A stretch of 64,000 nt of DNA from Cruoricaptor ignavus. GTDB lineage: Bacteria > Bacteroidota > Bacteroidia > Flavobacteriales > Weeksellaceae. Both the position numbers and the translations under genes were made by a program. A model generated the notes under the pieces. The model had not been told where the DNA came from. It worked only from the letters and a program-made list of their open reading frames with translations, and did no database searches. Position 1 is the first letter of the stretch. Each line of letters begins with the position of its first letter. Positions 28,693 through 62,474 of this stretch are shown in pieces. The stretch spans positions 1-64,000 of the forward strand of contig NZ_FQYI01000008.1 of the NCBI RefSeq assembly GCF_900141665.1. Reading direction: 5' to 3'.

Positions 28693-28711
28693 TATTAAAT
28701 TTTTGTTAATG

Positions 28712-28719
28712 CAAAATTA
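28712..28719 (-). promoter_or_regulatory. -7 box TAATTTTG of hemB
   Basis: Consensus -7 element on the minus strand 19 nt before the hemB ATG, back to back with the TATTTTTG box of the divergent gene. Confidence 0.45.
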
Positions 28720-28755
28720 ATGATAAAAATGCTTGAATCTTATTTTGGAATTTAA

Positions 28756-44823: not shown

Positions 44824-46407
44824 TTACGGTATTGGCTTCAGCTCGCTAACGGTAAATTGAGCATTGGCGGTGTGCGTGTCGCCGTACATATCCTTTGCCC
44901 GAACTTCTACCCTGTGCTCGCCATTTTCCAGCTTCGGAAATCTCGCCACCCAGATATGGCGGGAATTCTCTGGGTAAGATGGTCTTCTGCCGGCATATAG
45001 CGTCTCAGTGGTGTCCCATTTCAGAACAGATTGAATATACTCCGGATCAAAAGTTTCCGCATACTGCATCGGCTTCCACTCGCCGCCGTCTATGCGGTAT
45101 TCCACCGAATCGTTTTTGCTTCCGCTGAAAAAGTTGGCTACGATGCTGGCGTTATTTCTCACATTCTGCACCACCTTCGGTACATAGAGTTTTATTTGGT
45201 AATTCTCAGGTTTTCCTGCTACTTTGTATTGAATTTTATACTTGTTCCCGCTAAAGTTTACAAAAGAGTAGCCCTGCTCCGTACCATCTCTCATCATACT
45301 TTTAGGCAGGCCCCTTTCATTTGCAGTTCCTGAAAACCAATCGCCGGAAGTAGTTCCCATATTGATTTCGTGGAGATCTTTAGCGCCCTGCCACCCGTGA
45401 TCTTTTGTGTAAAAAATCTGAGATTGCTTGTGTGTATGGGCGGACATCATCAGAATGTTGTCGTAAGGTTGCAGTATGTCGAAAAGCGCCTTTCTGTCTT
45501 CCATCCTGAAATGATCTTCCCCCGGTCTTTCCGGTTCCATCTGGATGTGGAAAGCCAAAACCACCAACTTATTTTTATCTACAAATTTCAGGTCGTTTTT
45601 AATGAATTCCAGTTGATCTGGCCTAAAACCTCCGTAATAACCTTTACCATCCCTTGGATCCGGATAAAGTATGTCGTCCAGGATGATAAAATGCACATCA
45701 GCGTAGTTGAAAGAATATGTGCTAGGCCCAAAAGTCTTTTCAAAAGATTCATCGGAATGCCTATCTTCCTTGGCCTCGTAATTCATATCGTGGTTGCCCA
45801 TCACATTATACCAAGGCAAGCCAATCTCCTTCATTACCTGTGCGTACTGCGGATGAAGCGTCAAATCATCACCAACTAAATCACCGAGTGTGATTCCAAA
45901 AACAGCATTTTTCTTATTAGTTTTTACTTCATCTACAATAGCCCTTCTAAAATAATCTAACTCACGAAGGTTGTAAGGCTGTGGGTCTCCGAAAACGAGA
46001 ATCTCAAAATTCGGATTTTCCTGCTGGCGGTGTAGCGCGAAATTGATATTCTTTGGAAGCTTGCCTGTAGGCTTAACACCTTCATATTTAAAGCCTGATG
46101 GTGAGCCATTAGGTTTATGGTTATAGTAAAATTGAGGTAAGTTCAAATGATTCATTGGAACCTGGTATCCTGCTGGCTTTACTACGAAGATAATCTGGTC
46201 GTCATTAATTGGGAGAGTGTATCTTCCCGCAGCATCAGTTTGTACTACCTGAATGCCATTTGAAACCGAAACGCTGGCAATTCCTTTTTCACCGCGATCC
46301 ATTTTCCCGTTGCGGTTAGCATCATCGAACACATAGCCTGTCACATTATTAGCAAAGGCTGATGCCGCCGTAAAAATTAAAGTGGCTACAGTTAATCTTA
46401 ATTTCAT
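44824..46407 (-). CDS. Exported calcineurin-type phosphoesterase with N-terminal Ig-like domain
   Basis: A 527-residue exported enzyme (signal MKLRLTVATLIFTAASAFA). Residues about 20-110 form a SdrD-B/carboxypeptidase-regulatory-like fold (GYVFDDANRNGKMDRGEKGIASVSVSNG). The metallophosphoesterase domain follows with VFGDPQ, GDLVGDD, GNHDMNY, AFHIQME and HTHKQSQ as dimetal ligands. The C-terminal part (about 380-527) is beta-rich, with family-typical EYRIDGGEWKPM. It releases phosphate from an unknown ester. Last gene of operon 1, 2 bp after the GDPD gene. Confidence 0.9.
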   Translation of the reverse strand: MKLRLTVATLIFTAASAFANNVTGYVFDDANRNGKMDRGEKGIASVSVSNGIQVVQTDAAGRYTLPINDDQIIFVVKPAGYQVPMNHLNLPQFYYNHKPNGSPSGFKYEGVKPTGKLPKNINFALHRQQENPNFEILVFGDPQPYNLRELDYFRRAIVDEVKTNKKNAVFGITLGDLVGDDLTLHPQYAQVMKEIGLPWYNVMGNHDMNYEAKEDRHSDESFEKTFGPSTYSFNYADVHFIILDDILYPDPRDGKGYYGGFRPDQLEFIKNDLKFVDKNKLVVLAFHIQMEPERPGEDHFRMEDRKALFDILQPYDNILMMSAHTHKQSQIFYTKDHGWQGAKDLHEINMGTTSGDWFSGTANERGLPKSMMRDGTEQGYSFVNFSGNKYKIQYKVAGKPENYQIKLYVPKVVQNVRNNASIVANFFSGSKNDSVEYRIDGGEWKPMQYAETFDPEYIQSVLKWDTTETLYAGRRPSYPENSRHIWVARFPKLENGEHRVEVRAKDMYGDTHTANAQFTVSELKPIP

Positions 46408-46409
46408 TT

Positions 46410-47159
46410 CTATAAATTTTTAAGTTTTTCCGGTATATCAGTTGTAATTACTTTTATTCCCATCTCCATTAGCGTACGGGCAATTTCTTCGCTATTTACA
46501 GTCCAAGAATTGGTAATCAAACCCAATTCGTTAGCCTGCCGTATCCATTCGGGATGCTTATCAATGAAAATTTTATAATGATAATCGATGCCATCCAAAC
46601 CTAATGCCTTCACTTCCTGCGGAGATAATTCGCCATTTAAATATTGAACCTTAATCTGTGGAGCTATCCGCTTGGTTTCCAGGCAAATATTTTTGCTAAA
46701 GGAAATGATTTGCACCTGCTTATCAAGGCTTAATCGATTGACTTCTGCTACGGCCTTCCTCACCAGCTCATCTTCCAACACCTTGGTTTTTGCTGGTTTT
46801 ATTTCCATAATCAGTTGTATCGCCGGATGCCTTTTACCTAATTTGAGGTATTCTCTCAATGTGGGTATGCGCTCCCCATTACTCAGTGGAATTTTTCTCA
46901 GGTCTTTAAAGGTGGTTTCAGCAATCACCAATCCTGCGTGGTCCTCATCGTGATTTACGATTAACCTGCCATCCTTACTCATCCTCACATCGAATTCCGC
47001 CCCGTAAACGCCGGCTTGTACCGCGTTTTTAAATGAAGAGAGGGAGTTCTGTGCTGTTTCAGGAGCCGTTTTCCAAAAACCTCTATGCGCCACGATCTGC
47101 GTCTGCGCGGAGTATGCACCCGAGAGCATTAAGGCAAATATTAGCAAAAACTTTTTCAT
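46410..47159 (-). CDS. Exported glycerophosphodiester phosphodiesterase
   Basis: Hydrolyses glycerophosphodiesters (deacylated phospholipids) to glycerol 3-phosphate and an alcohol, in the periplasm. The 249 residues have signal MKKFLLIFALMLSGAYSAQT, then IVAHRGFWKTAPETAQNSLSSF (catalytic His-Arg), GAEFDVRMSKDGRLIVNHD (metal acids and second His), and MEIKP. ATG of MKKFLL was chosen over a frame six codons longer that overlaps the upstream gene. It lies 2 bp after susD1. Confidence 0.93.
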   Translation of the reverse strand: MKKFLLIFALMLSGAYSAQTQIVAHRGFWKTAPETAQNSLSSFKNAVQAGVYGAEFDVRMSKDGRLIVNHDEDHAGLVIAETTFKDLRKIPLSNGERIPTLREYLKLGKRHPAIQLIMEIKPAKTKVLEDELVRKAVAEVNRLSLDKQVQIISFSKNICLETKRIAPQIKVQYLNGELSPQEVKALGLDGIDYHYKIFIDKHPEWIRQANELGLITNSWTVNSEEIARTLMEMGIKVITTDIPEKLKNL

Positions 47160-47161
47160 AA

Positions 47162-48613
47162 CTATTTCTCCCACCAAACTTTTGTATTGTAAGTGTCACC
47201 TCCCATACTCTGAACGGCAGCGTTGTACTGTTCGGGGTTTTGCAGTCTTGTTACCGGAGGATACATAAATCGTACTGGCATTTTTCCATCATTTAGCAGC
47301 CCCCCATTGTTCGGCAATTTTGGATATCCGGTTCTGCGATACTCATACCAAGCCTGCTGATCGACAAAGAAAAGAGCCACATACTTCTGCATCATAAGAC
47401 GCTCCAAGGTGCCATTGTATGCCACATCAGGGTGATTAAGATACTCAGGCGTTGATTTGGCATTCCATTGCTCCAGGGATGCCTGAACACCTCTGTCATA
47501 AAATGTTTTTGCATCTCCAGGGATGACATTTTTTAGAGCTAACTCAGCTAAGATAAACTGTAGCTCAGAATACCCCATAATTTTCAGCGTTAGTGGCGTC
47601 TTGGCCAGAGCCTGATTGAGATTGGATGGGTTGTAAGTGAACTTCGTTCCGCTTTTATAGCCAGCCGGCGCGCCCTTATATCCTATATCCTTGTTAGAGC
47701 CAAGTTCTCTTGCCTTGCTGAAAAATGTTGGGCGCCGTGGATCCTCCGTTTTATTAAGATAATCCACAAAAAACTCTGCGGCGGCGCGCCCAGTCGTAAA
47801 ATCCTGTGGACGAACAATTGGCGCATCAAAAGGAGCAACGCCGGTAGCTAATACGAAGGCGCTATCATCATTATTAGTAAAAATGGGGTAAGTAGCGGGA
47901 TTTGAGATAATCTTATTGATTCTGTTTTTTACATCTATCTCGCCGTCTTTGTTAAGAATTCTTAGCAACATCCTGAGCGAGAGTGAATTGCAGAATTTCT
48001 TCCATTTTAAAACTCCTGCAGCATTCTCATTGGCATGATACATCTGATCCGGGCCTTTCAGAGTTTCCGACAGTAAAAAAAGTGAATTCGCTTTTTCCAG
48101 GTCGTTCAGCAGCTGGATGTAGACTTCTTTTTGATGGTCAAATTTTGGCGTCCTTATATTTTCTTCCTGGCGGAAGGCTTCGCTGAAAGGGACATCACCG
48201 AAACTGTCAGTAAGATTTTGAAAGCCCCACGCCCTTAAAACCAAGGCGACTGCCTCATTATTTTTATTCCCTTCCTTCTGCGCAAGTTTCAACATTTCAT
48301 TTATCTGCATCTGCCATCTGTAGGTGCTGTTCCAGTAGCCTACGCCAGTATTTTCGGTGAAATAATATCTTGACACCGTATTGCCCTCATTGGGAAAAGG
48401 AATGCTGTACTGCATTATTTCAAATCCAAAATTATTGGCACGCATATACGCTTCGCTCGCCATTTCAAACAGCGCAGGATTCAGCAGGTTTTCAGAATTG
48501 GCCTCAACCTGCTTCGAAAAGTCGATATTCGTTTCTTCGAAATCATTTGTGCAGGAAGACGATGCTGTAAGAAGTGATACAGCCGCTATTATATTTAAAA
48601 ACTTCTTTTTCAT
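47162..48613 (-). CDS. SusD/RagB-type outer-membrane lipoprotein, pair 1
   Basis: A 483-residue surface lipoprotein (signal MKKKFLNIIAAVSLLTASSSC) of the SusD-like group. Helical TPR-like parts and the late repeat QAWYEYRRTGYPKLPNN are typical. It caps the TonB-dependent partner and binds the nutrient. Ligand cannot be read from sequence; the operon context suggests phosphate esters or phospholipid breakdown products. It is 6 bp after susC1. Confidence 0.9.
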   Translation of the reverse strand: MKKKFLNIIAAVSLLTASSSCTNDFEETNIDFSKQVEANSENLLNPALFEMASEAYMRANNFGFEIMQYSIPFPNEGNTVSRYYFTENTGVGYWNSTYRWQMQINEMLKLAQKEGNKNNEAVALVLRAWGFQNLTDSFGDVPFSEAFRQEENIRTPKFDHQKEVYIQLLNDLEKANSLFLLSETLKGPDQMYHANENAAGVLKWKKFCNSLSLRMLLRILNKDGEIDVKNRINKIISNPATYPIFTNNDDSAFVLATGVAPFDAPIVRPQDFTTGRAAAEFFVDYLNKTEDPRRPTFFSKARELGSNKDIGYKGAPAGYKSGTKFTYNPSNLNQALAKTPLTLKIMGYSELQFILAELALKNVIPGDAKTFYDRGVQASLEQWNAKSTPEYLNHPDVAYNGTLERLMMQKYVALFFVDQQAWYEYRRTGYPKLPNNGGLLNDGKMPVRFMYPPVTRLQNPEQYNAAVQSMGGDTYNTKVWWEK

Positions 48614-48619
48614 AGTGTT

Positions 48620-51592
48620 TTAGAATTTTACATTAATGCTTATGCCGAAGGTTCTGGTAGATGGAAGTGCGCCTATGTCTACGCCGGGCGTGATATCGGC
48701 ATCGTCCATAGCTGCAGTTTCCGGGTCGAAAATTGGAAAGTCTTTTGTCCACATAGCTAGGTTTTTACCGTACAAAGCGATGGAAAACTCCTGAAGTTTC
48801 ATACTTTGCGTCACATTCTTATTGAACCTATAGCCAATTCTTGCATCTCTTAATTTGATAAATGATGCGTCAAACGAGTTGGTTTCAACATTGGCACGAC
48901 GATAATAGTCACTATACCATCTGCTAACCAGCACCTCTTTTGTATTTGGCGAATAAGAGCCATCCGGATTTTGGACCACACCTTCTCCAACCATCATTCC
49001 ACCCGGATTATCTCTAAAACGAAGCGTATGCTTCAATTTGCCTTGCTCGGACATCTTATGGTGTGTTTGAGAATATACGATACCTTTATATTGCCCGTCG
49101 AACGACACGGCAAAATCAAAATTCCCCACGCGTAAAGAGTTTTGGATTCCTGCACGCCATTTTGGGAAGGCGTTGCCTACTTTTTCTACATAAGAATTGC
49201 GTGCTGTAAATCCATCGGAGCCGTATACTACATTGCCCTGTGGATCACGCACAAGCTTATATCCGTACAAATCCCCTAGAGAGCCGCCTTTTACAGCGTT
49301 AAAATATACGGTACCTGCTGTGGCGTAGGTGTAGCCTTGTGGATCATCCGCGTATATTTCAGGGACTTCAAGTATCTTATTTCTGTTCATCGACCAGTTT
49401 GCGCCTATAGTCCATTGAACGCCTTTAGTTTTTACAGCCACTACATCAGTGCTCAATTCTACGCCGCGATTTCTTACCAAACCACTATTAATTAATCTCC
49501 TCGTATAACCGGTCTCTATGAGCACAGGTACCGCATATACCTCGTTTTTAGTGCGGTTTTCATAATAAGTAGCGTTGAATGTCAATCGGTTTCTGAACAT
49601 ATTTAAGTCAAAACCTCCTTCGATATTGGTGTTAAATTTTGGCTTCAAATCCGGATTATACATCCTGCTTTGCAGTACATATGAATCATCATAAAATTCA
49701 ATCGGATCATAATATCTCGTCAGTTGATAAGGCGAAGTACCAAAACCTGTCTTAGCCCAACTCCCGCGAAGTTTGAAGAGATTGATCTTTGTTCCTAATT
49801 CAAAAATATTGTTCAAAAGAACGCTAGCACTTACAGAAGGGTAGAAGAATGACCAATTTTTCTCTGGCAATGTACTTGTCCAATCATTTCTTCCGGTGAA
49901 GTCAATGTATACTTTGTCATCAAAGCCAACATTCACCATACCGTAAACAGAGTTTGTCTTTTTGTCATAAGGAAGGTATCTCCTATCCACGGACACACCA
50001 TTTTCTAATGTGTAGATACCAGGCTCCACAAGTCCTTTAGCCACATTTCTCTTGGTGCGACGACGGAAATCCCTCAAGCTCCCCCCAATAGAAGCGCGCA
50101 TATCAAATCTCCCAAAATCGTTTTTGTAAGTTGCAAGTAAATCGTGATTTAAATCGCGCGTATCAATTTTGGTTTCAGTAAACTGTCCTTTTCCAAATTT
50201 AGCAGAATTCCATGGCCTGCGTTCCCAGCGGTTGTCTCTGGTGAATTCCGCACCAGTCCTAAGCATTAAATCAAGGTTTGGGGTGATGGCATAATTTAGA
50301 GTGACACCACCGAGAACATTGTTTTTGTTCATGGCGTTCGTCATTTCGTACGCAATCAAATATGGATTATCAATGTACGAACTAAATGGGTGAATCTGCT
50401 CCTGCTGATATTTATCCTTCTTCCAAATCGGGCGATACCAGGCAAGGTCTATATTTGGATTTTGGAAAATCATAAAATAATTGATTGAATGGTTATTATA
50501 ACCGGTAGCCGGAAGGTTGTCCGAATTTGTATTAGAGTAAATAACTTTAAAGGCTGCCTTGAACTTATCAGTAATATTAACATTGAAGGTGTTGTTGGTA
50601 GTAAAGCGCTCAAAGCCGGTATTTGGCATAATCCACTCGTTTTTAGTGTAATTTAGTGACGAGCGGAAATTCATTCTTTGCCATCCTGCATCTAGAGTTA
50701 GTGTATTACTGTAATTTGTACCTGTTTGGAAGAAATCTTTTACATTCCGTTTGTATGGCCTCCATAAAGTACGCTCAGCGCCCTGCCCTTCTACATTAGG
50801 GTCATACTGGAAATAATATTGCCCTTCGAACTTAGGGCCAAAAGCACTTGAAGTAGCCCCAGTACTTACCCCATCAGGCGATGCTCCGTAAGAGTAATAT
50901 GTAAGACTGGAGCTACCGCCCTGACCGTACTCATATTGCCAGTCCGGCCACTTTAGTACTGTCTCAAAGCTGGTGTTCGCGATGTATCCAATATTCAATT
51001 TTCCACTTTTCCCCCTGCCGGATTTGGTCGTAATCATTATGGCACCATTGGCACCTCTTTCACCATAGAGGGCAGAGGCAGAGGCACCTTTTAGCACGGT
51101 TACAGATTCGATATCCTCTGCATTGATACTGTTAAGAATATTTCCATAATCAATAGGCACTTCTGTGGTTGAGCCGTAAGCAGGGGCACCAGTCCCCACA
51201 ATCTGCTGGTCAATGGGAATCCCATCTATTACAATCAAAGCAGCATTATCCGCATTTACCATTGAAGTTTCCCCGCGGAGCTTTATTCTTGCGGTTTCCA
51301 GCGGGCCTGCATTCGGCGTTAATACCTTCAGCCCAGCTACCTTACCTTCCATTGCGGTAGCGAAATTGTTAAACTGGGCGGTTTCAAAAACCTCCTCGTT
51401 AAGCTTCTCCGCCGAGTAGCCCAAGGCTTTCTGCTCCCGTTTTATTCCGAGGGCCGTCACCACTACCTCCTTGATCTGCCTTTCCCGAAGGGTATCCTGC
51501 ACGGGAGGATTTTGTGCAGTCTGTGCTGCGAGCTCACAGGACAACAATCCAGCCGCTGCAAGCACAATAATCTTCTGAACGCTTTTTTTCAC
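48620..51592 (-). CDS. SusC/RagA TonB-dependent transporter, pair 1
   Basis: A 990-residue outer-membrane barrel importing ligand with its SusD partner. Start is a GTG (VKKSVQKIIVLAAAGLLSCELAAQ), 19 nt after a -7 box; a TTG seven codons earlier is less likely. The mature protein starts with a TonB-box-like IKEVVVTALGI, then plug motifs MEGKVAGLKVLTPNAGPLETARIKLRG and ASASALYGERGANGAIMITTKSG. The usual N-terminal carboxypeptidase-regulatory domain is absent. The barrel ends with ISINVKF. First gene of operon 1. Confidence 0.95.
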   Translation of the reverse strand: MKKSVQKIIVLAAAGLLSCELAAQTAQNPPVQDTLRERQIKEVVVTALGIKREQKALGYSAEKLNEEVFETAQFNNFATAMEGKVAGLKVLTPNAGPLETARIKLRGETSMVNADNAALIVIDGIPIDQQIVGTGAPAYGSTTEVPIDYGNILNSINAEDIESVTVLKGASASALYGERGANGAIMITTKSGRGKSGKLNIGYIANTSFETVLKWPDWQYEYGQGGSSSLTYYSYGASPDGVSTGATSSAFGPKFEGQYYFQYDPNVEGQGAERTLWRPYKRNVKDFFQTGTNYSNTLTLDAGWQRMNFRSSLNYTKNEWIMPNTGFERFTTNNTFNVNITDKFKAAFKVIYSNTNSDNLPATGYNNHSINYFMIFQNPNIDLAWYRPIWKKDKYQQEQIHPFSSYIDNPYLIAYEMTNAMNKNNVLGGVTLNYAITPNLDLMLRTGAEFTRDNRWERRPWNSAKFGKGQFTETKIDTRDLNHDLLATYKNDFGRFDMRASIGGSLRDFRRRTKRNVAKGLVEPGIYTLENGVSVDRRYLPYDKKTNSVYGMVNVGFDDKVYIDFTGRNDWTSTLPEKNWSFFYPSVSASVLLNNIFELGTKINLFKLRGSWAKTGFGTSPYQLTRYYDPIEFYDDSYVLQSRMYNPDLKPKFNTNIEGGFDLNMFRNRLTFNATYYENRTKNEVYAVPVLIETGYTRRLINSGLVRNRGVELSTDVVAVKTKGVQWTIGANWSMNRNKILEVPEIYADDPQGYTYATAGTVYFNAVKGGSLGDLYGYKLVRDPQGNVVYGSDGFTARNSYVEKVGNAFPKWRAGIQNSLRVGNFDFAVSFDGQYKGIVYSQTHHKMSEQGKLKHTLRFRDNPGGMMVGEGVVQNPDGSYSPNTKEVLVSRWYSDYYRRANVETNSFDASFIKLRDARIGYRFNKNVTQSMKLQEFSIALYGKNLAMWTKDFPIFDPETAAMDDADITPGVDIGALPSTRTFGISINVKF

Positions 51593-51610: not shown

Positions 51611-51666
51611 CAAAGTTAGAGCGCATTTCTGGGGCGAATGTTAATGGATGTTTAATTTTAGGTTAA
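51611..51666 (-). promoter_or_regulatory. susC1 promoter with 11-bp TTAAC direct repeats (Pho-box-like)
   Basis: On the minus strand three units, TTAAC (51666-51662), TTAAA (51655-51651) and TTAAC (51644-51640), are spaced exactly 11 bp apart. Then 21 bp lead to a perfect -7 box TAACTTTG (51618-51611). No TTTG -33 element is present; the proximal unit takes its place. This is the classical layout of PhoB/PhoP-activated promoters. Confidence 0.6.
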
Positions 51667-51873: not shown

Positions 51874-53298
51874 TCAATGCGAAAGCATCTCAGCCGGGAT
51901 ATTCTGCTCAGGGATCCCGATGCTGGAGATGCCCACATCCAGCACCTGCCCCATATAGTCCTCGAAGTATAGCACCTCTATTTTGTGGTAACCTTCCTCC
52001 AGCGCCACTATGCCCTCTTTGCGCTGCGCGCTGTGTCCGCCATCGTTATCTACAATGGTTTGGCCATCTATTTTAATAACGGAGCCGTCGTCAGAGTAGC
52101 TGTAAAATTTATAAAAAGCAGTCTCGGGAATGCGGATATACCCGCTAAAGGACAGAGCAAAGTGGTCATCTGCGGCGGCATTCTCAAGGTCTATTTTAGT
52201 TGCAGTACCGCTTTTCAGTTCTTTCAGGTTCCCAATTTCCTTTACCGATTTTACTTTTCCTTCGTAATAACTGTAATGCAGGCCTTCTTTACTTGGTTTC
52301 ACATTCTGCGCTTTCAGAACTTTGGTTTTTTCGCTAATTTCCGAAAGCCCGGACGGGAAACTGTAAGGAAATTTCCTGCCGGAAGGCAGCGACAGATAGG
52401 ATGAAAAAGCAAACTGATCTTCTTTTAAAGTTATCACTCTGCCGCCCTGCTCCAGCCTGCCGTAGCCATCGTTGCCGGTCTTCGCACCGTAGCCAAGCGC
52501 AACCCCGCGGTAGCTTCCGATATAATTGTTATCGTGGTCGTGCCCGCAGAAAACGCCAATTACATCCTTGCGCTCCAGGATAGCGGCCATCAAGCCACTG
52601 TTTACCGCCGCCGAAGATACATCTTCATTTGCTTCTCCCACTTTTGCCGGGTCCTTCGCCACCACCGCGAACTCCGGCAACGGGATATGGAAGAACATCA
52701 GCGCGGGCAAAGTTTTCCCTGCAGATTTTTCAATCCGTTCGCTTTCTTCGGCGTACCAGGAGATTTGGTCGCGCTTAATCCACGCATAGTTGCCAAGCTT
52801 AGGGTTGCGGGTGTAATCCCCGCTGTCTAAGAAATAAAGCGTAGCGGCCGGTTTGTTGGTTTTTGAAGAATGCACCGGGAGCGAGAAATTTGCAACGCCT
52901 GCCACAGAGCCCTTTTCACCAACAAAATGCGGGAAAGTTTTCAGAAAATCAAAAGATTGTGCATTAGTCCAGTCCTGCTCGCCATCGTGGTTTCCGAAGA
53001 CCAAAGTCCACGGCACGCCTGCCTCCTCTATGATTTTGCCCAGGTTTCTCCAGCCGTCCCTCATCGGGATACAGTTGACATTATCGCCATCCAGCACGAT
53101 GAAATCAGGCTTTTCAGCCGCTATTATCCTGCGGAGGGTTTCCGTAGTTTTATTGGTATATTTCGGCTCATTGCTCCAGTGTATATCCGTAAACTGGAGG
53201 ATTTTAAGCTCACCATCAGAATTAAATTTTAGCTGATTTTTCTGCGCGTACGCCATTGCTACGGCAGAAAGCAACAATGCAAAAAAGAATTTTTTCAT
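51874..53298 (-). CDS. Exported metallophosphoesterase with PA14-like C-terminus
   Basis: A 474-residue exported enzyme (signal MKKFFFALLLSAVAMAYA). Phosphoesterase motifs FTDIHWSNE, LDGDNVN, FGNHDGE, MFFHIPLPEF and GHDHDNNYIG supply the metal ligands of the purple-acid/calcineurin group. Residues about 340-474 are a PA14-type beta domain (LHYSYYEGKVKSV...YKFYSYSDDGSVIKIDGQTIVDN...GYHKIEVLYFED), likely binding carbohydrate or a surface polymer. It overlaps the upstream phosphatase gene by 4 bp and is last in operon 2. Confidence 0.92.
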   Translation of the reverse strand: MKKFFFALLLSAVAMAYAQKNQLKFNSDGELKILQFTDIHWSNEPKYTNKTTETLRRIIAAEKPDFIVLDGDNVNCIPMRDGWRNLGKIIEEAGVPWTLVFGNHDGEQDWTNAQSFDFLKTFPHFVGEKGSVAGVANFSLPVHSSKTNKPAATLYFLDSGDYTRNPKLGNYAWIKRDQISWYAEESERIEKSAGKTLPALMFFHIPLPEFAVVAKDPAKVGEANEDVSSAAVNSGLMAAILERKDVIGVFCGHDHDNNYIGSYRGVALGYGAKTGNDGYGRLEQGGRVITLKEDQFAFSSYLSLPSGRKFPYSFPSGLSEISEKTKVLKAQNVKPSKEGLHYSYYEGKVKSVKEIGNLKELKSGTATKIDLENAAADDHFALSFSGYIRIPETAFYKFYSYSDDGSVIKIDGQTIVDNDGGHSAQRKEGIVALEEGYHKIEVLYFEDYMGQVLDVGISSIGIPEQNIPAEMLSH

Positions 53299-55115
53299 GG
53301 TTTAATATTTAGCGCGTTCAAGATTTTATAAAAAACTGCGGTATTTTCATAAAAACCGACAAACCGCTCTGCCCCGGAGCCATAGGCGAAAACGGATACC
53401 GGCAGCGCGGTGTGGTCGTTGGTGCTCTGCTGAGCAAATATGCGCCCAGTTTTCAGATCTCCATCCAGCAGCGTGACGCCGCCGGTTTCGTGGTCGCCTA
53501 TTACGATTACGAGGGTTTCCCTGTTCTCGTCTGCGAATCGCATCGCCCTGCCCACTGCCTCGTCAAAATCGAGCAGCTCGTCCACCATTTTGCCGAATTC
53601 ATTGGAATGCAGATTGATATCCGTGCGGGAAGCTTCTGCCATTATAAAAAAACCCTTTTTATTCCGGCTTAAAACTTTTAGAGTTTTTTCAAGAGTATTA
53701 ATAAGCCAGTTGCCACGCTCGGCGAAATTTTTTGAAGCCAAGGGATCCATTATCAATGCTCTTTCCCCTTGAAAATCCGCAATTTCGGAATTACTGAAGA
53801 TGTTAATTTTTTGTGATTTAAATTTTTCCTTCTCCGCCTCGGAAAGTTCCACTGCCGGTGCGCCGGCGAGGATTTTCACTCCAGAATCCGCGAACTGCTG
53901 AAGGATCGTGCGGCTGTCGTCCCGGTTGTCCGTATGCGCGTAGAAGTCTGCAGGCGTGGCATCTGTAACATCGCCCGTGGAGATGAGCCCGCTCACGATA
54001 CCTTTTTCTTTCAAAATTTCCGGCAGAAGGCGCAGCGGCTTGCCCAGAGGATCTACCCCTACGAAATTATTATTGGTCTTTACCCCGGAGGAAAACGCCG
54101 TGGAACCTGGCGCGGAATCCGTGACAAAAGCATTGGCAGAGTTGGTTTTGGAGATCCCGGTGTAAGGCATTCTAAAAATATTCAGGCTGCCGCGGTTGGC
54201 TGTGTATGCCGCGTAAAGCTGAGGTAGCGCCACGCCGTCGGCAATCATTAAAACGACATTCTTAGCCCGTGTTTTAAATTTGGGAAACTTCGGGTGGTAA
54301 GCCTCAAAGGAAGTGTGGCTGCGGTACTCATTCTTTGGAATTTGGTTGAGGAAGGCTGCCAGCTCGGGGATTTTGTCGGTATTGATGAAATCCGCGCCTG
54401 CATCCATAAGGTTTACCCAGGCATTCGCAAAATCCGGCGCACCCCAGAAGCGGATGGCCTTGCCCTGCAGATGCGCCTGCCGAACAGCTTCCCGCACTTT
54501 CGCCGATTCCTCATCCCGCATAATGCCCTTACCATTCCATTTGGTATAATCCCTGAGCGGCGCACTGAACATGCCCACCCTTCCCAGCTGATCGGGCGAG
54601 TATTCTTTCGTTAAATCTCCGTCAAAAAAAAGATATTCAGGGTAATTTTTGAACTCTGAAGGCTGCGGCACATTGCCCGTAATGATGAGTTTCACAGTTT
54701 TATTCTGCGTAATAATCTGATACTTAGAATCCAGCAGGCGCACCAGCGCGGGCAATTCTGATCTGTAATCGCTCTTCATTTCTATGAAAAGTATCAGCTT
54801 CTCCATTTTATCTGCGCGGATGCTGCCATTGTTTTCGCGGAGTAAGACGGCGATGGGCTCCAGGTAAAGCTTCTCCAGGGTACGATCTGAAGTGAGCTCG
54901 TGCGGGTCGTGGCCAATCAAAAGCTGATTGTTTTGGTAAAACACATCTGCCTCAATGGAGCCAAAACCCGCATAATAGGCCGTCCAAAAAGGTATGGGCT
55001 GATGATAATCGTTGTGGGAATGCGCATTCCGCACGGAATAATCGGAAAAATTTTGCGCAGAAAGTTCTGCGCAAAATCCTGAAACCAAAAATATAAAGAA
55101 AAATAGTTTTTTCAT
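53295..55115 (-). CDS. Fusion of PI-PLC/GDPD-like domain and PhoA-type alkaline phosphatase
   Basis: A 606-residue exported protein (signal MKKLFFFIFLVSGFCAELSA). Residues about 28-255 match the PI-PLC/GDPD-like group: AHSHNDYHQP (His32, His34), SIEADVFY (Glu55, Asp57) and IGHDPHEL (His69). Residues about 280-606 form an alkaline phosphatase: NVVLMIADG (Asp293), VTDSAPGSTAF with nucleophile Ser334, AEASRTDINLHSN, and GDHETGGV, with a final His in NDHTALPV. The first domain would cut phosphodiesters and the second would release phosphate from the monoester product. That coupling is inferred. Third gene of operon 2, overlapping the next by 4 bp. Confidence 0.88.
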   Translation of the reverse strand: MKKLFFFIFLVSGFCAELSAQNFSDYSVRNAHSHNDYHQPIPFWTAYYAGFGSIEADVFYQNNQLLIGHDPHELTSDRTLEKLYLEPIAVLLRENNGSIRADKMEKLILFIEMKSDYRSELPALVRLLDSKYQIITQNKTVKLIITGNVPQPSEFKNYPEYLFFDGDLTKEYSPDQLGRVGMFSAPLRDYTKWNGKGIMRDEESAKVREAVRQAHLQGKAIRFWGAPDFANAWVNLMDAGADFINTDKIPELAAFLNQIPKNEYRSHTSFEAYHPKFPKFKTRAKNVVLMIADGVALPQLYAAYTANRGSLNIFRMPYTGISKTNSANAFVTDSAPGSTAFSSGVKTNNNFVGVDPLGKPLRLLPEILKEKGIVSGLISTGDVTDATPADFYAHTDNRDDSRTILQQFADSGVKILAGAPAVELSEAEKEKFKSQKINIFSNSEIADFQGERALIMDPLASKNFAERGNWLINTLEKTLKVLSRNKKGFFIMAEASRTDINLHSNEFGKMVDELLDFDEAVGRAMRFADENRETLVIVIGDHETGGVTLLDGDLKTGRIFAQQSTNDHTALPVSVFAYGSGAERFVGFYENTAVFYKILNALNIKP

Positions 55116-56653: not shown

Positions 56654-59488
56654 TTAAAGTCCAACATTTAACCCGAAGAGAACGGTGCGCGCCTGTGGAT
56701 AGCGGCCAATATCAATACCATAGTTATTCATCCCCACTTCAGGATCGAAGCCTTTGTAGTTTGTAAAGGTCACAAGGTTATCTGCCGTGATGTAAATTCT
56801 GACTGATTTGATGTCGATCATCTCGGTGTATTTCAGCGGGAGCGTGTAGCCCACGGTAAGGTTTTTCAGGCGGAGATAATCTCCTTTCTCAATGTAGAAA
56901 TCCGACACGCGTGAGTAGTTCCCGGAAGGGTCCCCAATCGCCAAGCGAGGGATAGAGGCACCGGTATTGTTCGGCGTCCAGGCGTTGAGGATATCTGTAT
57001 CCATATTGTAATTCTGTCCTGTACCGCCCGGGTTCAGGGTGATGAATTTCAGCCCGTTGAAAATCTTGCTACCGTACACCCCCTGGAAGAATGCGTTGAT
57101 GTCGAAGCCTTTATAGCTGAAATTAGCGCTGAAGCCGTAGTTGAGTTTAGGATAAGGATTCCCGAGGTAAACCATATCATCGTTGTTCAGCCTGCCGGTA
57201 TTGCCTTCTTTTTTAAGGAATTTAATGTCGCCGGGCTTCGCATTCGGCTGGATCAGCACTCCATTGGCATCCTTGTAATTATTGATTTCCTCCTGAGACT
57301 GGAAGAGACCCGCAGTTTTATAACCGTAGAATGAGTACAAAGCATCGCCCACGACTACTCTGGTAGGATATAGCACGCCGCGGACACTGTTGTTCATCGC
57401 AATCTGCTGTACCGGCATTTCCTTCACCTTGTTCTGAAGGTGGCTCAGGTTGGCATTAAAGCTGTAAAAAATCTCTCTTGCGCGCGGTCCCTGAAAGTTG
57501 AGGCCGATCTCGTATCCTTTATCCTCAAAAAGCCCCGCGTTTATGAAGGTGGTCTTGTAACCCGCCGTGATTGGCAAAGGCACTTCAAAAATCTGGTCTT
57601 TGGATTTTTTGATGAAATAATCTGCGGTGAGCGTCAGGCGGCTGTTCAGGAAGCCCATATCGATACCGAAGTCAGTCTGCTCAGATTTACCCCATTTCAA
57701 ATTAGGGTTCGGGTATACACTTGGGAAGTATGCTACATTCGGCTGAGGGTCCTGGCCAAATATGATGTAATTTTCCCTCCTCATTACTGGATTTACAGCG
57801 TCATACGATATGCCGCCGAGATTCCCCAGCACACCATAGCTCGCACGCAATTTGAAATCCCTCATCCAGCTTACATTCTCAAAGAAGCTCTCTCTGCCAA
57901 GGCCCCATGCCCCGGAAACAGCGTAGTAGTTTTCATAACGGTTATCTTTAGATACCATAGAGGATCCGTCGCGGCGGCCCAGCAAGCTTATAATGTATCT
58001 GCTTCTATAATCGTAATTCACGCGGCCAAGCAGCGATGTGAGCGCATCAGAATATTTATAGCTGGATACATTTTTATTATCATTGGCATTTACCAGATAT
58101 TGGTAGTTTGGGTGCTCATTTCTAAAATCCTCCCCCCTTGCTGAGAAGCCATCTGATATGTTTTTCTGGAATGTATAGCCTACCGTAGCATCTATAGTAT
58201 GACCGCTGAATGTTTTTTTATAGCTTAGAATCTGTTCGGCAAGGCTGCTGGACATGTTGCTGGAATTCTGCTCAAGCCTGTTGAAGTCGAATATCTTTCC
58301 AACCTCTAACACACGGTGCGTGAATTCCTTGCTGTCTGCCAGGCGGAAGGTTTGTGAAAAGTTTGAACGGAATTTCAGCCCGTCCAGCAGGGAGATCTCA
58401 ACATAAGGATTGATAAGAATCTCGTGGGTTGGGTTTTTATAGGTAAGTCTTTTCAGGTAGGCCACGGGGTTGATCATATCGCCGTAGCTCCCTGCCACGC
58501 TGATCGGCAGGCCGGAGAAATTTCCGTTCTGATCATAGACAGGAACATTCGACGGGTAATACATTGCTGCGAGAATAGCGCCCGTATAGCCGCTGGCCGT
58601 GTTGGCCGAATTGCCGTCAGAAAAATGATAATACATATTTTCGCCGATTTTCAGCCAATCATTTACCGTGTGGTCGGAATTTACCCGGAAGCTATACCTT
58701 TTAGCCTGGGTGTTGTCTAAAATTCCCTCCATAGAGCGGTGGTTCATACCAACGAAGAAACGAGAGCTGTCCCCACCGCCCGTCAGGTTGATATTGTACT
58801 CCTGAGTAACACCCGTGCGAAATATTTCCTCCACCCAGTCAGTTCTCGTAATAGCGCCATCAGGATATTTAGCAGGATCAAAAGCATCTGGAACCGCCTT
58901 CCCTTCATTCTGGTAGGCCTGCGTCATCACGCTCTGGAATTCAGAAGCATTTAGGGAATGCCTAAGTTTCCAGGCCTTGGAAATCCCATATTTAGCATCC
59001 AGCTCTACATTTAGAGCGCCTCTTTTGCCTTGTTTCGTGCTAATAAGAACCACACCACCGGAAGCCCGCGCTCCATAGATGGCGGCAGAGGCGTCCTTCA
59101 GCACAGAGATGGATTCAACATCATTCGGGTTAATGTTCGGCGTACCTTCGAAAACTACGCCATCTACCACATACAGGGGAGCCTCACCATTGATGCCCCC
59201 AAGGCCGCGGATATTTACGCGCGGTGAGGAAGTCGGATCACCGCCCTCATTGATCACAGTGACGCCAGGAGCCTTCCCCTGAAGTGCGGAACCTACTCCT
59301 GAGAGCGATCTGGAGCCGATTTTATCCAGCTCTACCTGAGATACCGCGTTCGAAACTTTGGATTTCCTCTGGCTGCCGTATCCGACTACCACCACCTCTT
59401 CGATTGTTTTCTCTCTGAGGCTGTCTGCCGTCTGAGCCGCCATGGTTCCGATGCACAGCAGCGAAACCGGGATGAATAGTTTGTTCAT
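56654..59488 (-). CDS. SusC/RagA TonB-dependent transporter, pair 2
   Basis: A 944-residue outer-membrane transporter (signal MNKLFIPVSLLCIGTMAAQT). TonB-box-like IEEVVVVGYGSQRKSKV is followed by plug motifs LQGKAPGVTVINEGGDPTSSPRVNIRGLGGI and DASAAIYGARASGGVVLISTKQG. The barrel ends TVLFGLNVGL. Like its paralogue it has no N-terminal carboxypeptidase-regulatory domain. It is the first gene of operon 2, with SusD2, the phosphatase fusion and the PA14 phosphoesterase downstream. Confidence 0.96.
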   Translation of the reverse strand: MNKLFIPVSLLCIGTMAAQTADSLREKTIEEVVVVGYGSQRKSKVSNAVSQVELDKIGSRSLSGVGSALQGKAPGVTVINEGGDPTSSPRVNIRGLGGINGEAPLYVVDGVVFEGTPNINPNDVESISVLKDASAAIYGARASGGVVLISTKQGKRGALNVELDAKYGISKAWKLRHSLNASEFQSVMTQAYQNEGKAVPDAFDPAKYPDGAITRTDWVEEIFRTGVTQEYNINLTGGGDSSRFFVGMNHRSMEGILDNTQAKRYSFRVNSDHTVNDWLKIGENMYYHFSDGNSANTASGYTGAILAAMYYPSNVPVYDQNGNFSGLPISVAGSYGDMINPVAYLKRLTYKNPTHEILINPYVEISLLDGLKFRSNFSQTFRLADSKEFTHRVLEVGKIFDFNRLEQNSSNMSSSLAEQILSYKKTFSGHTIDATVGYTFQKNISDGFSARGEDFRNEHPNYQYLVNANDNKNVSSYKYSDALTSLLGRVNYDYRSRYIISLLGRRDGSSMVSKDNRYENYYAVSGAWGLGRESFFENVSWMRDFKLRASYGVLGNLGGISYDAVNPVMRRENYIIFGQDPQPNVAYFPSVYPNPNLKWGKSEQTDFGIDMGFLNSRLTLTADYFIKKSKDQIFEVPLPITAGYKTTFINAGLFEDKGYEIGLNFQGPRAREIFYSFNANLSHLQNKVKEMPVQQIAMNNSVRGVLYPTRVVVGDALYSFYGYKTAGLFQSQEEINNYKDANGVLIQPNAKPGDIKFLKKEGNTGRLNNDDMVYLGNPYPKLNYGFSANFSYKGFDINAFFQGVYGSKIFNGLKFITLNPGGTGQNYNMDTDILNAWTPNNTGASIPRLAIGDPSGNYSRVSDFYIEKGDYLRLKNLTVGYTLPLKYTEMIDIKSVRIYITADNLVTFTNYKGFDPEVGMNNYGIDIGRYPQARTVLFGLNVGL

Positions 59489-59513: not shown

Positions 59514-59569
59514 CAAAATTATATCGGCAAAACCTTTTTTGAGCGAATATCATATTAATAAATTATTAA
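59514..59569 (-). promoter_or_regulatory. susC2 promoter with in-phase TTAAT repeats
   Basis: Minus-strand units TTAAT (59569-59565) and TTAAT (59558-59554) are 11 bp apart. A degenerate TTCGC (59547-59543) occupies the third in-phase position, 21 bp before the -7 box TAATTTTG (59521-59514). The register equals that of susC1, though AT-richness makes it weaker evidence. Confidence 0.45.
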
Positions 59570-59714: not shown

Positions 59715-62399
59715 TTACTTCACCACAACTTTCAGGCTCTGGCCTTCGCTGGTTTTGATGATGTAGATGCCTTTCTGAAGACCGGCAGTGCTCACCGCAG
59801 AAGCTTTAGCGCCCTTCCTCACCAGCTTGCCAGTCATATCGTAAATCTCAAAATCCACCGCTTTGCTGAAATGCAGATCAGCACCCTGATTCACAGGGTT
59901 CGGATAAGCGGATAGGCCGTTTCTCACGCTGCGCTCATTCGTCTTCAAAATTGAGCCGCCCAATTCATAAATCGAAATGGTGCCGCTGATTTCGTTGGCC
60001 ACCAATACATAGCCCTTGCCGTTGCCAGAATCTTCCTGCGAAATGTACAGCACGCCTTCCGGACCAAGGTCTCCTTTTTCACGCGCATTCTGATAATCTA
60101 CGAAAACAGGGCTCTGCGGATTGGTAACATCGTACGCCAGAACGCCGCCCACTCTTTCCAGCGTGATGAACGCGAAAGTTTTCCCGCCGATTTCCGCCAA
60201 CGCTACGCCTTCAGGCTCAGGGCCTTTGGAATGGCTCCTGCCTTTTATCTTCACTTTTTCGTGGTCGGAATTGAAGAACTTCGGATACTTCGCCAGCGTA
60301 ATGCGCTCAATCTGATCGCCGCTGTCGAAAACCAGCTGCTTTGTATCGGCGTTGAAAATCGAGAACGACCTTGCGCCCACATTGTTGATTTCTTCAAAAA
60401 CGCCGTCCCCATCGTTATCGCCATTCAGGTTCGTTACACGGAATCTGCCCAGGTTGTAGCTCTGTTTCAGCATTTCAGCCTGTGGGAAATTCGCAGGGTT
60501 CAGTTTATAATTGGCGTTGCCCACCGTGGTTCTTTCGTTCAGAGCGCTGAATTCTTTCTCGTCGCCTTCGTTGGCGGTGATGATGTAGTTCACGCCGTTC
60601 ACCTGGTAAGTCTGCGCTGCATCAGGGATGTAGAAGGACTTCACGGGCCAGTTGGCAATTAGGATTTCACCGTTGCTATCGCTCGCATCAAAACCGTTGC
60701 CCGGCTGGCTCGTATCCTTTTTGCCAAGGCCCCAAACATCAGTCAGCGTCTTAGTCGCCAAATCGATTTCCGCGATGCCGTTATTTTCCTGAAGCGTTAC
60801 AAAGGCCTTCCTGCTGTCCGCCGTTATCGTAATGTATTCCGGCTCAATGTCTTGGTAAATCGTGTTGTCTTTCTTCAGGTGCCTCAGGCCTTTGGCAATC
60901 AGTTCATCCTGGGTGAATTTCTTGAAATCCACAGTGGTCACCTGGCTTTGCGAAAGATTCGAAATTCCGCCGGAAATATCGATGATGCTCACCGTGCCCT
61001 CAGGGTCATTGTCGTACGCAGCGTTTGGCTCGCCTTCATTAGCCGTCAGAACTAATTTTCCGTCTGGCGAGAAAGTCACCATATCAGGCAGCGCACCCAC
61101 GGTAACCTGCTTCAGGAAATCACCGTTTGGATTGAAGAAAACCACGGAACCATTTTGCTGTTCGTCCGCATTTGGCGAAACTATGGCCACCAGATCATTC
61201 TTCACGGCCACGCTCGTTACGCCACCATAAGGCTTCATATCGATGGTTTTGAAAACCGACGGCATTTCAGGGTTGCTGAAATCGATGATGTCTACCACGC
61301 CAGTTATAGCACTGATGGCGAAAAGCCGCTTGGTTCCCGGGTGAAACGCCAGGATCTCCACAGAGCTTTTGTTCGCGCCTGAAGGATCGAAGCTTCCCTT
61401 GTAGTTCATCGTAAGTTCCGTGGTGCTTTGCGGCGCAGCCTTGTCATTATCCACTATGTAAACCGTGGCCAGCGTATTGCCCTTAGTTTCCGCATTCACA
61501 GGGTTTTGCAGTTCCAGGTTAAAATATTCGGCATGCTGCTCATTCGCATCGCTGTCATCGATTATAGGGATGCTCACCGCATACTCCGTTTGCCCCGGTA
61601 CGATGGTAATGGTCTGATTGCTGAATGAAAAATCGCTGCCGTTTTCCGCCGTGTTGAATTCCGCAGGTTTCAGCACCAGGTCCACGCTTCCAGCTACAGG
61701 ATTTTCAACTTTAACGATGAAATTCAGCGTGCCGGCATTTTCCTTCACGCTAATGAAGTTTTTATCAAAAGAAACTGTCGCAGGCGTATTTTGCTGCGCG
61801 ATGCCGCTATCCAGCGTGAAATTATCAAAGCGGTTGTTCCCTTTTGTTCCGCCGCCAGCCTCGGAAAATTCTACCTTTAGCTTAAAGTTCGGGTTGTTGT
61901 TCGCCGCAGCTATTTGGGTAAAATCCAGCGTTATCAGTTCAGGGTTGCCGTCCTTAGGATTTACCGTCTGGAAGTTCGTCCAGCTGCTACCATCCGTGGT
62001 GTAATACCAGGTTTGCGTGCCGGCACCCTGGCCAGAACGCCTTGTGGCAAATTTCACCACGATGTTATCGTAGCCTGTCGTAGGCAAAGAAAAAGTGAGA
62101 ATGCCATCAATCGGGTTGTTATAGCGAAGGTGCGCACCCGCAGGATCGCCGTTTCTCGCATTCAGATTTTCAACATCGAAGTTCTGCTTCGTTCCGCCGG
62201 CAGGATCGATTTTACTCACTGCGGTATTTGTAGCCACGATGGAAGCGCCGTTTACCAGGCTTACATTGGGCGCAAGCAATTTAGCTTCTGTGGAATTGTC
62301 GTTAAAATTCCAGTAGTGCACCAGGGTTTGTGCCGTGCCGAAAGACGATGCGGCAAAGGCCGTCATCACCAGGCCTTTAAAGAGCAGATTTTGTTTCAT
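59715..62399 (-). CDS. Choice-of-anchor I secreted protein with T9SS sorting domain
   Basis: An 894-residue exported protein (signal MKQNLLFKGLVMTAFAASSFGTAQ). Domains: an N-terminal jelly-roll (about 25-190, LVHYWNFNDNST...FKLKVEFSEAGGG), a Calx-beta-like unit (about 205-320, VKENAGTLNFIVKVENP), a propeller of the choice-of-anchor I type (about 330-815, ILAFHPGTKRLFAISAITGVVDIIDF...TANEGEPNAAY...ANEGDEKEF...GPEPEGVALAEIGG) and a type-A sorting domain (LSAYPNPVNQ...KGIYIIKTSEGQSLKVVVK). Proteins of this class are often annotated near alkaline phosphatases. The upstream repeats place it with the phosphate operons. Confidence 0.88.
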   Translation of the reverse strand: MKQNLLFKGLVMTAFAASSFGTAQTLVHYWNFNDNSTEAKLLAPNVSLVNGASIVATNTAVSKIDPAGGTKQNFDVENLNARNGDPAGAHLRYNNPIDGILTFSLPTTGYDNIVVKFATRRSGQGAGTQTWYYTTDGSSWTNFQTVNPKDGNPELITLDFTQIAAANNNPNFKLKVEFSEAGGGTKGNNRFDNFTLDSGIAQQNTPATVSFDKNFISVKENAGTLNFIVKVENPVAGSVDLVLKPAEFNTAENGSDFSFSNQTITIVPGQTEYAVSIPIIDDSDANEQHAEYFNLELQNPVNAETKGNTLATVYIVDNDKAAPQSTTELTMNYKGSFDPSGANKSSVEILAFHPGTKRLFAISAITGVVDIIDFSNPEMPSVFKTIDMKPYGGVTSVAVKNDLVAIVSPNADEQQNGSVVFFNPNGDFLKQVTVGALPDMVTFSPDGKLVLTANEGEPNAAYDNDPEGTVSIIDISGGISNLSQSQVTTVDFKKFTQDELIAKGLRHLKKDNTIYQDIEPEYITITADSRKAFVTLQENNGIAEIDLATKTLTDVWGLGKKDTSQPGNGFDASDSNGEILIANWPVKSFYIPDAAQTYQVNGVNYIITANEGDEKEFSALNERTTVGNANYKLNPANFPQAEMLKQSYNLGRFRVTNLNGDNDGDGVFEEINNVGARSFSIFNADTKQLVFDSGDQIERITLAKYPKFFNSDHEKVKIKGRSHSKGPEPEGVALAEIGGKTFAFITLERVGGVLAYDVTNPQSPVFVDYQNAREKGDLGPEGVLYISQEDSGNGKGYVLVANEISGTISIYELGGSILKTNERSVRNGLSAYPNPVNQGADLHFSKAVDFEIYDMTGKLVRKGAKASAVSTAGLQKGIYIIKTSEGQSLKVVVK

Positions 62400-62418: not shown

Positions 62419-62474
62419 CAAAAATCATCAAAAACTGCCGAATTTCGATAAGAAATTTGTTAAGGAATTGTTAA
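62419..62474 (-). promoter_or_regulatory. Promoter of the choice-of-anchor I gene with TTAACA repeats (Pho-box-like)
   Basis: Minus-strand TTAACA units at 62474-62469 and 62463-62458 are 11 bp apart. An in-phase CTTAT (62452-62448) sits 21 bp before GATTTTTG (62426-62419), a 7-of-8 match to the -7 box, 19 nt before the ATG. Same register as susC1 and susC2. Confidence 0.55.

Follow-up and report, generated by a model that had tools for sequence, protein, structure and literature searches.

Phased 11-bp repeats ahead of a SusC gene of Cruoricaptor ignavus: a probable Pho box in the position of the -33 promoter element

Introduction

Three TTAAC-type repeats stand in single file ahead of a gene for a SusC/TonB-dependent receptor (susC1) of Cruoricaptor ignavus, and they raise the question of which regulator, if any, reads them, and what it is about their arrangement that marks a functional site. 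The repeats lie in a 64,000-nucleotide stretch of the genome, referred to below as the window, and a preliminary description made from the sequence interpreted them as a Bacteroidetes Pho box. In Bacillus subtilis the Pho box of PhoP is built of TTAACA-like units placed head to tail every 11 bp next to the -35 region of genes that respond to phosphate starvation, and in Escherichia coli the Pho box of PhoB is built of 11-bp direct repeats of the unit CTGTCAT, which replace the -35 element. Promoters read by the primary sigma factor of the Bacteroidota have the consensus TAnnTTTG at -7 and TTG at -33.

No defined Pho box of the Bacteroidota was found among the matches listed in the open-licence literature of PubMed Central, which is weak evidence that there is none. 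Putative Pho boxes have been marked by bioinformatics in the plcP clusters of marine bacteria that include flavobacteria (PMC4796936), and no flavobacterial consensus was found in the excerpts of that paper. If the reading as a Pho box is correct, an operator with a fixed promoter register would make the phosphate regulon of such organisms predictable from their genomes, would allow phosphate-type SusCD systems to be separated from sugar-type ones, and would offer precise mutants for the study of how PhoB acts on a promoter without a -33 element.

Results

The repeat array and the promoter of susC1

The repeats had been described as recurring with exact 11-bp spacing and as ending 21 bp before a perfect -7 box that lacks a -33 partner, and all of this is borne out. 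On the minus strand, positions 51666-51611 match TTAAC-N6-TTAAA-N6-TTAAC-N21-TAACTTTG base for base, with N6 spacers that give exact 11-bp steps (Table 1), and no TTG or TTTG is present 17-24 bp upstream of the -7 box. Compared with the primary-sigma consensus, the promoter has TAnnTTTG at -7 and no TTG at -33, and the place of the missing element is taken by repeat 3.

The array has the layout expected of a Pho box: its units are direct repeats with an 11-bp step, and it occupies the -35/-33 position ahead of a -7 box in a promoter without a good -33 element. Its units are like those of Bacillus, with TTAAC in two of the three and TTAACA in one of these, while units of the E. coli type are absent and TTAAM is found instead; what is shared with the E. 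coli PhoB box is the 11-bp direct repetition, and the unit differs (CTGTCAT there; TTAAC, TTAAA or nTAAC here). To judge from their letters, the susC1 units resemble the Bacillus TTAACA more closely than the E. coli CTGTCAT. The present array has the head-to-tail TTAACA-like units and the 11-bp step in common with the PhoP box of B. subtilis, and is distinguished from it by being set in a Bacteroidota-type promoter, with TAnnTTTG, no -33 element and a constant 21 bp between the last unit and the -7 box.

Chance is an unlikely origin of the array, as judged by shuffled sequences. The triple of TTAAM units occurs once in the 64-kb window and arose in none of 100 dinucleotide shuffles; in a second set of shuffles of the window, the triple occurs in 1 of 200 and the triple followed by N21 and the box in 0 of 200. 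When the 118-bp AT-rich intergenic stretch was shuffled 20,000 times, the triple appeared in 8 cases and the triple with N21 and the box in none. A scan of the 2.23-Mb genome with the whole pattern yields one match without mismatch, which is susC1, and one with a single mismatch. The full triple pattern with up to three mismatches was rejected as noise, since its 8 matches are outnumbered by the 10 of the reversed control; near-perfect matches alone are therefore informative.

The TTG start at 51613 proposed by the open reading frame tool overlaps the -7 box, which makes the GTG at 51592 the likely start of susC1, and several orthologues show a GTGAAAAGA start at the corresponding position. 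The transcript would then likely have a very short leader.

Table 1. Positions of the promoter elements, genes and repeat sites discussed in the text; positions without a prefix are those of the window.
Feature	Position	Strand	Remarks
Repeat 1, TTAAC	51662..51666	minus	starts 48 bp before the -7 octamer
Repeat 2, TTAAA	51651..51655	minus	starts 37 bp before the -7 octamer
Repeat 3, TTAAC	51640..51644	minus	starts 26 bp before the -7 octamer; in the -33 position
N21 spacer	51639-51619	minus	between repeat 3 and TAACTTTG
-7 box TAACTTTG (TAnnTTTG)	51611..51618	minus	21 bp after repeat 3
susC1, SusC/TonB-dependent receptor	48620..51592	minus	likely GTG start at 51592
SusD-like lipoprotein	47162..48613	minus	PF12771, PF12741; next gene after susC1
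Glycerophosphodiester phosphodiesterase (GDPD)	46410..47177	minus	PF03009
Calcineurin-like phosphoesterase	44824..46407	minus	PF16370, PF16371, PF00149
susC2 promoter	59514..59569	minus	TTAAT-N6-TTAAT-N6-TTCGC-N21-TAATTTTG; ATG 25 nt after box
susC2, SusC-type receptor	56654..59488	minus	then SusD2, PhoA, metallophosphatase-PA14; set upstream of susC1
SusD2	55130-56638		after susC2
PhoA	53295-55115		after SusD2; weak GDPD_2 match (E 8e-4, below Pfam cut-off)
Metallophosphatase-PA14	51874-53298		after PhoA
Choice-of-anchor I promoter	62419..62474	minus	TTAAC-N6-TTAAC-N6-CTTAT-N21-GATTTTTG; one -7 mismatch; ATG 19 nt after box
Choice-of-anchor I protein with T9SS signal	59715..62399	minus	adjoins cluster
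In-register site	C6:12003		Exo_endo_phos_3
In-register site	C8:105766 (L049, C8:105737-105793)		1179-aa He_PIG/T9SS protein; three TTAAY units readable on both strands
In-register site	C8:131545		PhoA-T9SS
In-register site, perfect	C12:155342 (L295:2885-3343)		small protein, sub-threshold HD_4 match
In-register site	C16:63882		TonB receptor divergent from phoB
In-register site	C18:39216		OMP_b-brl_4 protein
In-register site	C18:61703		purple acid phosphatase-T9SS
In-register site	C18:74724		SusC-type receptor, then TPR protein and NPP-type phosphodiesterase
In-register site	C19:127715		PstS-like protein, then two permeases and ATPase
Out-of-register site, scanned, not in test	C24:85572		no family
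Out-of-register sites, not in test	C15:122733, C18:127504, C19:360875, C24:367470		POT transporter and three TonB receptors

Conservation of the array in the family

A match to susC1 of more than 1150 bits is present in 42 of 148 genomes of the family, the source genome included, and these come from 11 genera; because the orthologues share descent, the 42 genomes are not 42 independent cases. With the last TAnnTTTG before the gene as the anchor, a TTAA pair in the register of the susC1 array is found in 41 of the 42 and at shifts of 2-8 in none, while shifts of 1, 9 and 10 give 6, 17 and 23 of 42 through array steps of 10 and 12 bp. The orthologues were also aligned on their best-scoring placement, and the counts for the successive bases of TTAA are then 41, 42, 42 and 42 of 42 in both repeat 2 and repeat 3, with the TAnnTTTG box in 42 of 42.

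A score for the whole architecture reaches at least 19 of 21 in 35 of the 42 orthologues and at least 18 in 41 of 42; the corresponding figures are 0 and 2 for 840 shuffles, and 1 and 4 for 20 paralogous SusC genes. The 20 control genes, like a further 8 SusC genes, were picked by hand from the list of matches in the family and scanned over 920 nt, and the orthologues over 350 nt. These 8 belong to a group of about 45% identity whose start sites are uncertain, and 3 of them score at least 19. The TTAA peaks of the orthologues lie at -26, -37, -47/48, -58, -70 and -81, so that the array extends to about six units, and TTAAA, found in most orthologues, is commoner than TTAAC; both features set these arrays apart from the PhoP box of B. 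subtilis.

The register is also seen at a second family of promoters, that of the TonB receptor gene divergent from phoB. Of the 30 phoB loci in the family, 7 without an anchor for the -7 box of the receptor and 2 with a different box were dropped, and among the remaining 21 the in-register pair occurs in 14, at shifts of 2-9 in none, and at shifts of 1 and 10 in 5 and 9.

Specificity of the distance to the -7 box

The expected enrichment of the motif before phosphate genes is not seen for the bare repeat pair and emerges when the distance to the -7 box is included. The bare 11-bp pair was rejected as a genome-wide predictor of Pho boxes: TTAAY-N6-TTAAY occurs at 77 places in the whole genome compared to 52 for the reversed pattern, and many of these precede housekeeping genes, the downstream genes including mraZ, dnaA, LemA, integrase and recQ. 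When the -7 boxes that follow the 77 pairs are counted (perfect, or with one mismatch in TA), 7 places have a gap of 21 between pair and box and 6 a gap of 32. The 56 other gaps between 5 and 65 hold a mean of 0.61 places and a maximum of 3; this mean excludes the gaps of 10, 43 and 54, which share the phase of the register and contain 2, 1 and 1 places. A Poisson estimate for the excess at gaps 21 and 32 is about 6e-10, with two sites counted at both gaps. The 13 places correspond to 11 distinct sites, with susC1 counted apart, and at each of the 11 the box is followed by an in-frame ATG at a distance of 17-40 nt.

Altogether the TTAAY pairs make up 62 distinct sites: these 11, susC1, 26 that are out of register and whose downstream gene was scanned, which form the comparison set of a Fisher test, 5 that were scanned and not entered, and 19 that are unannotated. 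Phosphate-acquisition genes stand behind 8 of the 11 in-register sites and 1 of the 26 out-of-register sites (P = 3.5e-5, susC1 not counted, the classing of the genes not being blind); without the choice-of-anchor I gene, whose class was likewise not assigned blind, 7 are phosphate-related and P = 2.3e-4. The only phosphate-type gene among the 26 is a PhoU_div gene, and none of the five scanned sites outside the test is clearly phosphate-related. It is the distance to the -7 box, and not the repeat pair alone, that gives specificity. A background of 18 stretches of this genome (358 kb) with no in-register site was dropped as evidence, since not one of the 77 TTAAY pairs falls in them and the zero is largely produced by construction. 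In 846 kb of this genome there are 8 in-register nTAAY sites compared to a mean of 0.85 in other phases, but most of the sequence beyond those stretches was chosen for its pairs. One in-register match falls within a gene (L046:8471).

Genes behind the in-register sites

Two of the 11 sites precede susC2 and the choice-of-anchor I gene, in the neighbourhood of susC1, and the other nine are elsewhere in the genome (Table 1). Separate promoters in the same register as that of susC1 precede susC2 and the anchor I gene; in both, two repeats are good and the third is degenerate. At Exo_endo_phos_3, HD_4 and the purple acid phosphatase, the genes as first called overlap the -7 box, and a start at a later in-frame ATG, 18-20 nt beyond the box, fits instead. 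The He_PIG-T9SS, HD_4 and OMP_b-brl_4 genes are without a known phosphate role. The genome carries T9SS genes and SprA.

The gene content of the cluster is like that of the PUS clusters of Flavobacterium johnsoniae, which are induced by phosphate depletion and also combine SusCD with PhoA (plus a GDPD domain) or with phosphodiesterases (PMC8115612); PhoA1 of PUSII, for example, is a PhoA with pf13653 beside a SusCD pair (PMC8115612). No box was defined in the excerpts of that paper, and the words “motif” and “promoter” are absent from its main text.

Some further observations concern individual genes. At the HD_4 site (C12:155342), phosphate starvation could conceivably be linked to nucleotide signalling. 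No match to PhoU (PF01895) at E <= 0.001 was found in the genome, though a PstS-like operon is present (C19:124000-128000, L337), and a PhoU_div (DUF47) protein is encoded away from that operon. The PhoU_div gene and a FecR gene have TTAAY pairs that are out of register.

The register in Flavobacterium and the response to phosphate starvation

In 15 of 15 named Flavobacterium genomes, the receptor gene beside phoB has nTAAC at -26 and -37 from a TTTCTTTG box. The 284 kb of Flavobacterium DNA around phoB contain 25 in-register sites, 15 at the receptor and 10 before the lipoprotein reading frame that follows it, compared to a mean of 1.7 in other phases, which show peaks at phases 11, 22, 33, 41 and 52 that stem from the same receptor array. 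The lipoprotein sites lie 38-44 nt upstream of the reading frame, and this second site is absent in 5 of the 15 genomes. The strict TTAAM triple has 1 match in the 15 genomes compared to 1 for the reversed control, and the unit in these genomes is nTAAC.

Gene order and Pfam families in these stretches match the phoBR region of F. johnsoniae, and the counterparts of Fjoh_0545 and Fjoh_0546, which were identified in related species by gene order and not by sequence, carry the register. Both F. johnsoniae genes rise in low phosphate, with fold changes, taken as log2, of 8.02 and 9.91 (PMC8115612, Table 1), and Fjoh_0544 (phoB) rises by 3.06 (PMC8115612). Fjoh_0541 also rises, by 5.42 (PMC8115612), and no in-register site was found at the glycosyltransferase gene matching it in any of the 15 genomes. 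The PhoX-like Fjoh_2478 reaches 12.50 on phosphate depletion (PMC8115612), and the promoter of a PhoX-family gene of F. ajazii reads TTAAA-N6-TTAAT-N21-TAACTTCG. PF05787 proved to be of little use as a marker of PhoX, being matched in 4 of 15 genomes, with three of the matches weak and without an in-register pair.

The regulator

Sequence, register, conservation, gene content and the presence of a regulator all support the interpretation of the repeats as a Pho box, which is corrected here in one respect, namely that the bare pair is unspecific and the register relative to the -7 box specific. Judged from sequence, the three repeats are probably a Pho box at which PhoB would act as activator from the -33 position, with a probability of roughly three in four. 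The genome encodes three OmpR-family regulators (PF00486), one PhoB-like, one CopR-like and one RprY-like, and it is the genes behind the in-register sites that favour PhoB among them. The PhoB orthologue (C16:63116-63802) is encoded beside a PhoR-like kinase and adjoins one of the in-register sites; it is nearest to TIGR02154, the NCBIfam PhoB models giving 211 and 193 bits where their cut-offs are 296 and 270. All of the 46 genomes searched contain a close match to it. On the strand of phoB itself, no pair was found in this genome at -26/-37/-48, and a pair lies farther up at a gap of 54. In Bacteroides fragilis, another member of the Bacteroidota, PhoB binds the promoter of a phosphate gene, pstC (PMC3547664); binding there was to a 512-bp fragment, with no site defined in the excerpts of the paper, and at the present promoter binding is a prediction.

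The main rival to PhoB is its paralogue RprY, which probably has a motif similar to the in-register repeats. According to this explanation, which is judged unlikely, the site belongs to RprY as a binder of TTTAACA-type repeats that governs envelope and stress genes, and the phosphate genes are RprY targets, perhaps through repression. It derives its force from the OmpR-family regulator “PhoP” of another flavobacterium, Riemerella anatipestifer, whose DAP-seq motif, with the published logo known from its legend, has nearly the same core, TTTAACA, and was called similar to the ArcA motif (PMC9603813); no susC1 unit has a T before TTAAC, and the third unit, ATTAACA, is one base off. This “PhoP” looks like RprY rather than PhoB in the peptides of three published primers (PMC5399024): DGEEGLK, GYQLGAD and TLATDG (primer Check R) are consistent with the RprY of the present genome (TLATDGELGLK, GYQIGAD) but not with its PhoB (ADNGEDGVS, GYQAGAN), and Check R differs from the RprY locus by 3 mismatches, compared to 6 and 6 for the other two regulator loci. 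The other five primers discriminate poorly at the DNA level, so that the identification depends on few peptides: two regulator primers have 6, 6, 7 and 6, 6, 8 mismatches to the RprY, CopR-like and PhoB loci, and some other phoB loci are only 4 mismatches from the regulator primers. The loci of the present genome tied to this comparison are L048:7416-8099 and L046:5114-5803.

The RprY explanation also gains from an 8-fold higher level of pstS mRNA in an R. anatipestifer double mutant (PMC5399024), and from the Bat operon, a direct target of “PhoP” (PMC9603813), whose counterpart here has TTAAC-N6-TTAAC, out of register, before a TPR gene that is batC by position. However, the 50 direct targets listed, among 764 bound genes overall, include Bat, GLPGLI, a cytochrome, dnaG and a TonB receptor and no phosphatase (PMC9603813), and no fixed register relative to a -7 box was found in the excerpts of that paper. 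The in-register sites, in contrast, are concentrated at phosphate genes and next to phoB, and are found again at the counterparts of the phosphate-induced genes of F. johnsoniae.

Less probable still is that the repeats are read by some other phosphate-linked regulator that is neither PhoB nor RprY. It counts against this that OmpR/PhoB regulators typically bind head-to-tail repeats with an 11-bp step in the -33/-35 position, and that there are three PF00486 matches in the genome in all. What speaks for it is that the genes induced by phosphate depletion in F. johnsoniae include ECF sigma and FecR genes (PMC8115612), and that a FecR gene adjoining an ECF sigma gene in the present genome has an out-of-register pair. 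The least probable explanation of all, that the repeats are not a regulator site and belong, as a phased AT-rich or UP-like element, to strong promoters that lack a -33 box, would fit AT-rich units with an 11-bp phase and the out-of-register pairs before housekeeping genes, but the in-register sites are few and gathered on phosphate genes, the paralogous SusC promoters mostly score low, and the register occurs at only two promoters in the 284 kb of Flavobacterium DNA.

Discussion

If PhoB is the reader of the repeats, the switch can be pictured as follows. Phosphate shortage would lead to the phosphorylation of PhoB, and the phosphorylated protein would bind the 11-bp repeats in head-to-tail order along one face of the helix. 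The last unit sits where sigma would touch the -33 element, and PhoB may take over this position, which would be the role of the third repeat. Sigma and RNA polymerase would be recruited by PhoB to the TAnnTTTG box of a promoter without a -33 element, and the genes susC1-susD-GDPD-phosphoesterase would be switched on, with the import and splitting of organic phosphate as the outcome. The logic would be the same as in the Pho boxes of E. coli and B. subtilis, in which the repeats lie by -35 and the regulator recruits polymerase. The recurrence of the same repeats at the same distance from the -7 box before other phosphate genes, in this genome and in relatives, makes the proposed phosphate switch directly testable.

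A more far-reaching proposal can be put forward only tentatively, namely that the Flavobacteriales have a phosphate operator of their own. This would consist of two to six phased 11-bp units (TTAAM or nTAAC) at -26, -37 and -48 from a -7 box without a -33 element, on which a PhoB oligomer replaces the sigma contact, while RprY would read nearly the same unit without the register, geometry sorting the two regulators.

Two further observations concern other loci. At positions 28694-28721 of the window, three TTAAY units in 11-bp steps abut the start of the gene for delta-aminolevulinate dehydratase, with no in-register -7 box. At C24:81205 and C24:85202 (L052), open reading frames of 1154 and 980 aa have near-identical upstream regions with TTAACAATTCGTTAAT, and the sharing of these regions suggests a duplicated promoter.
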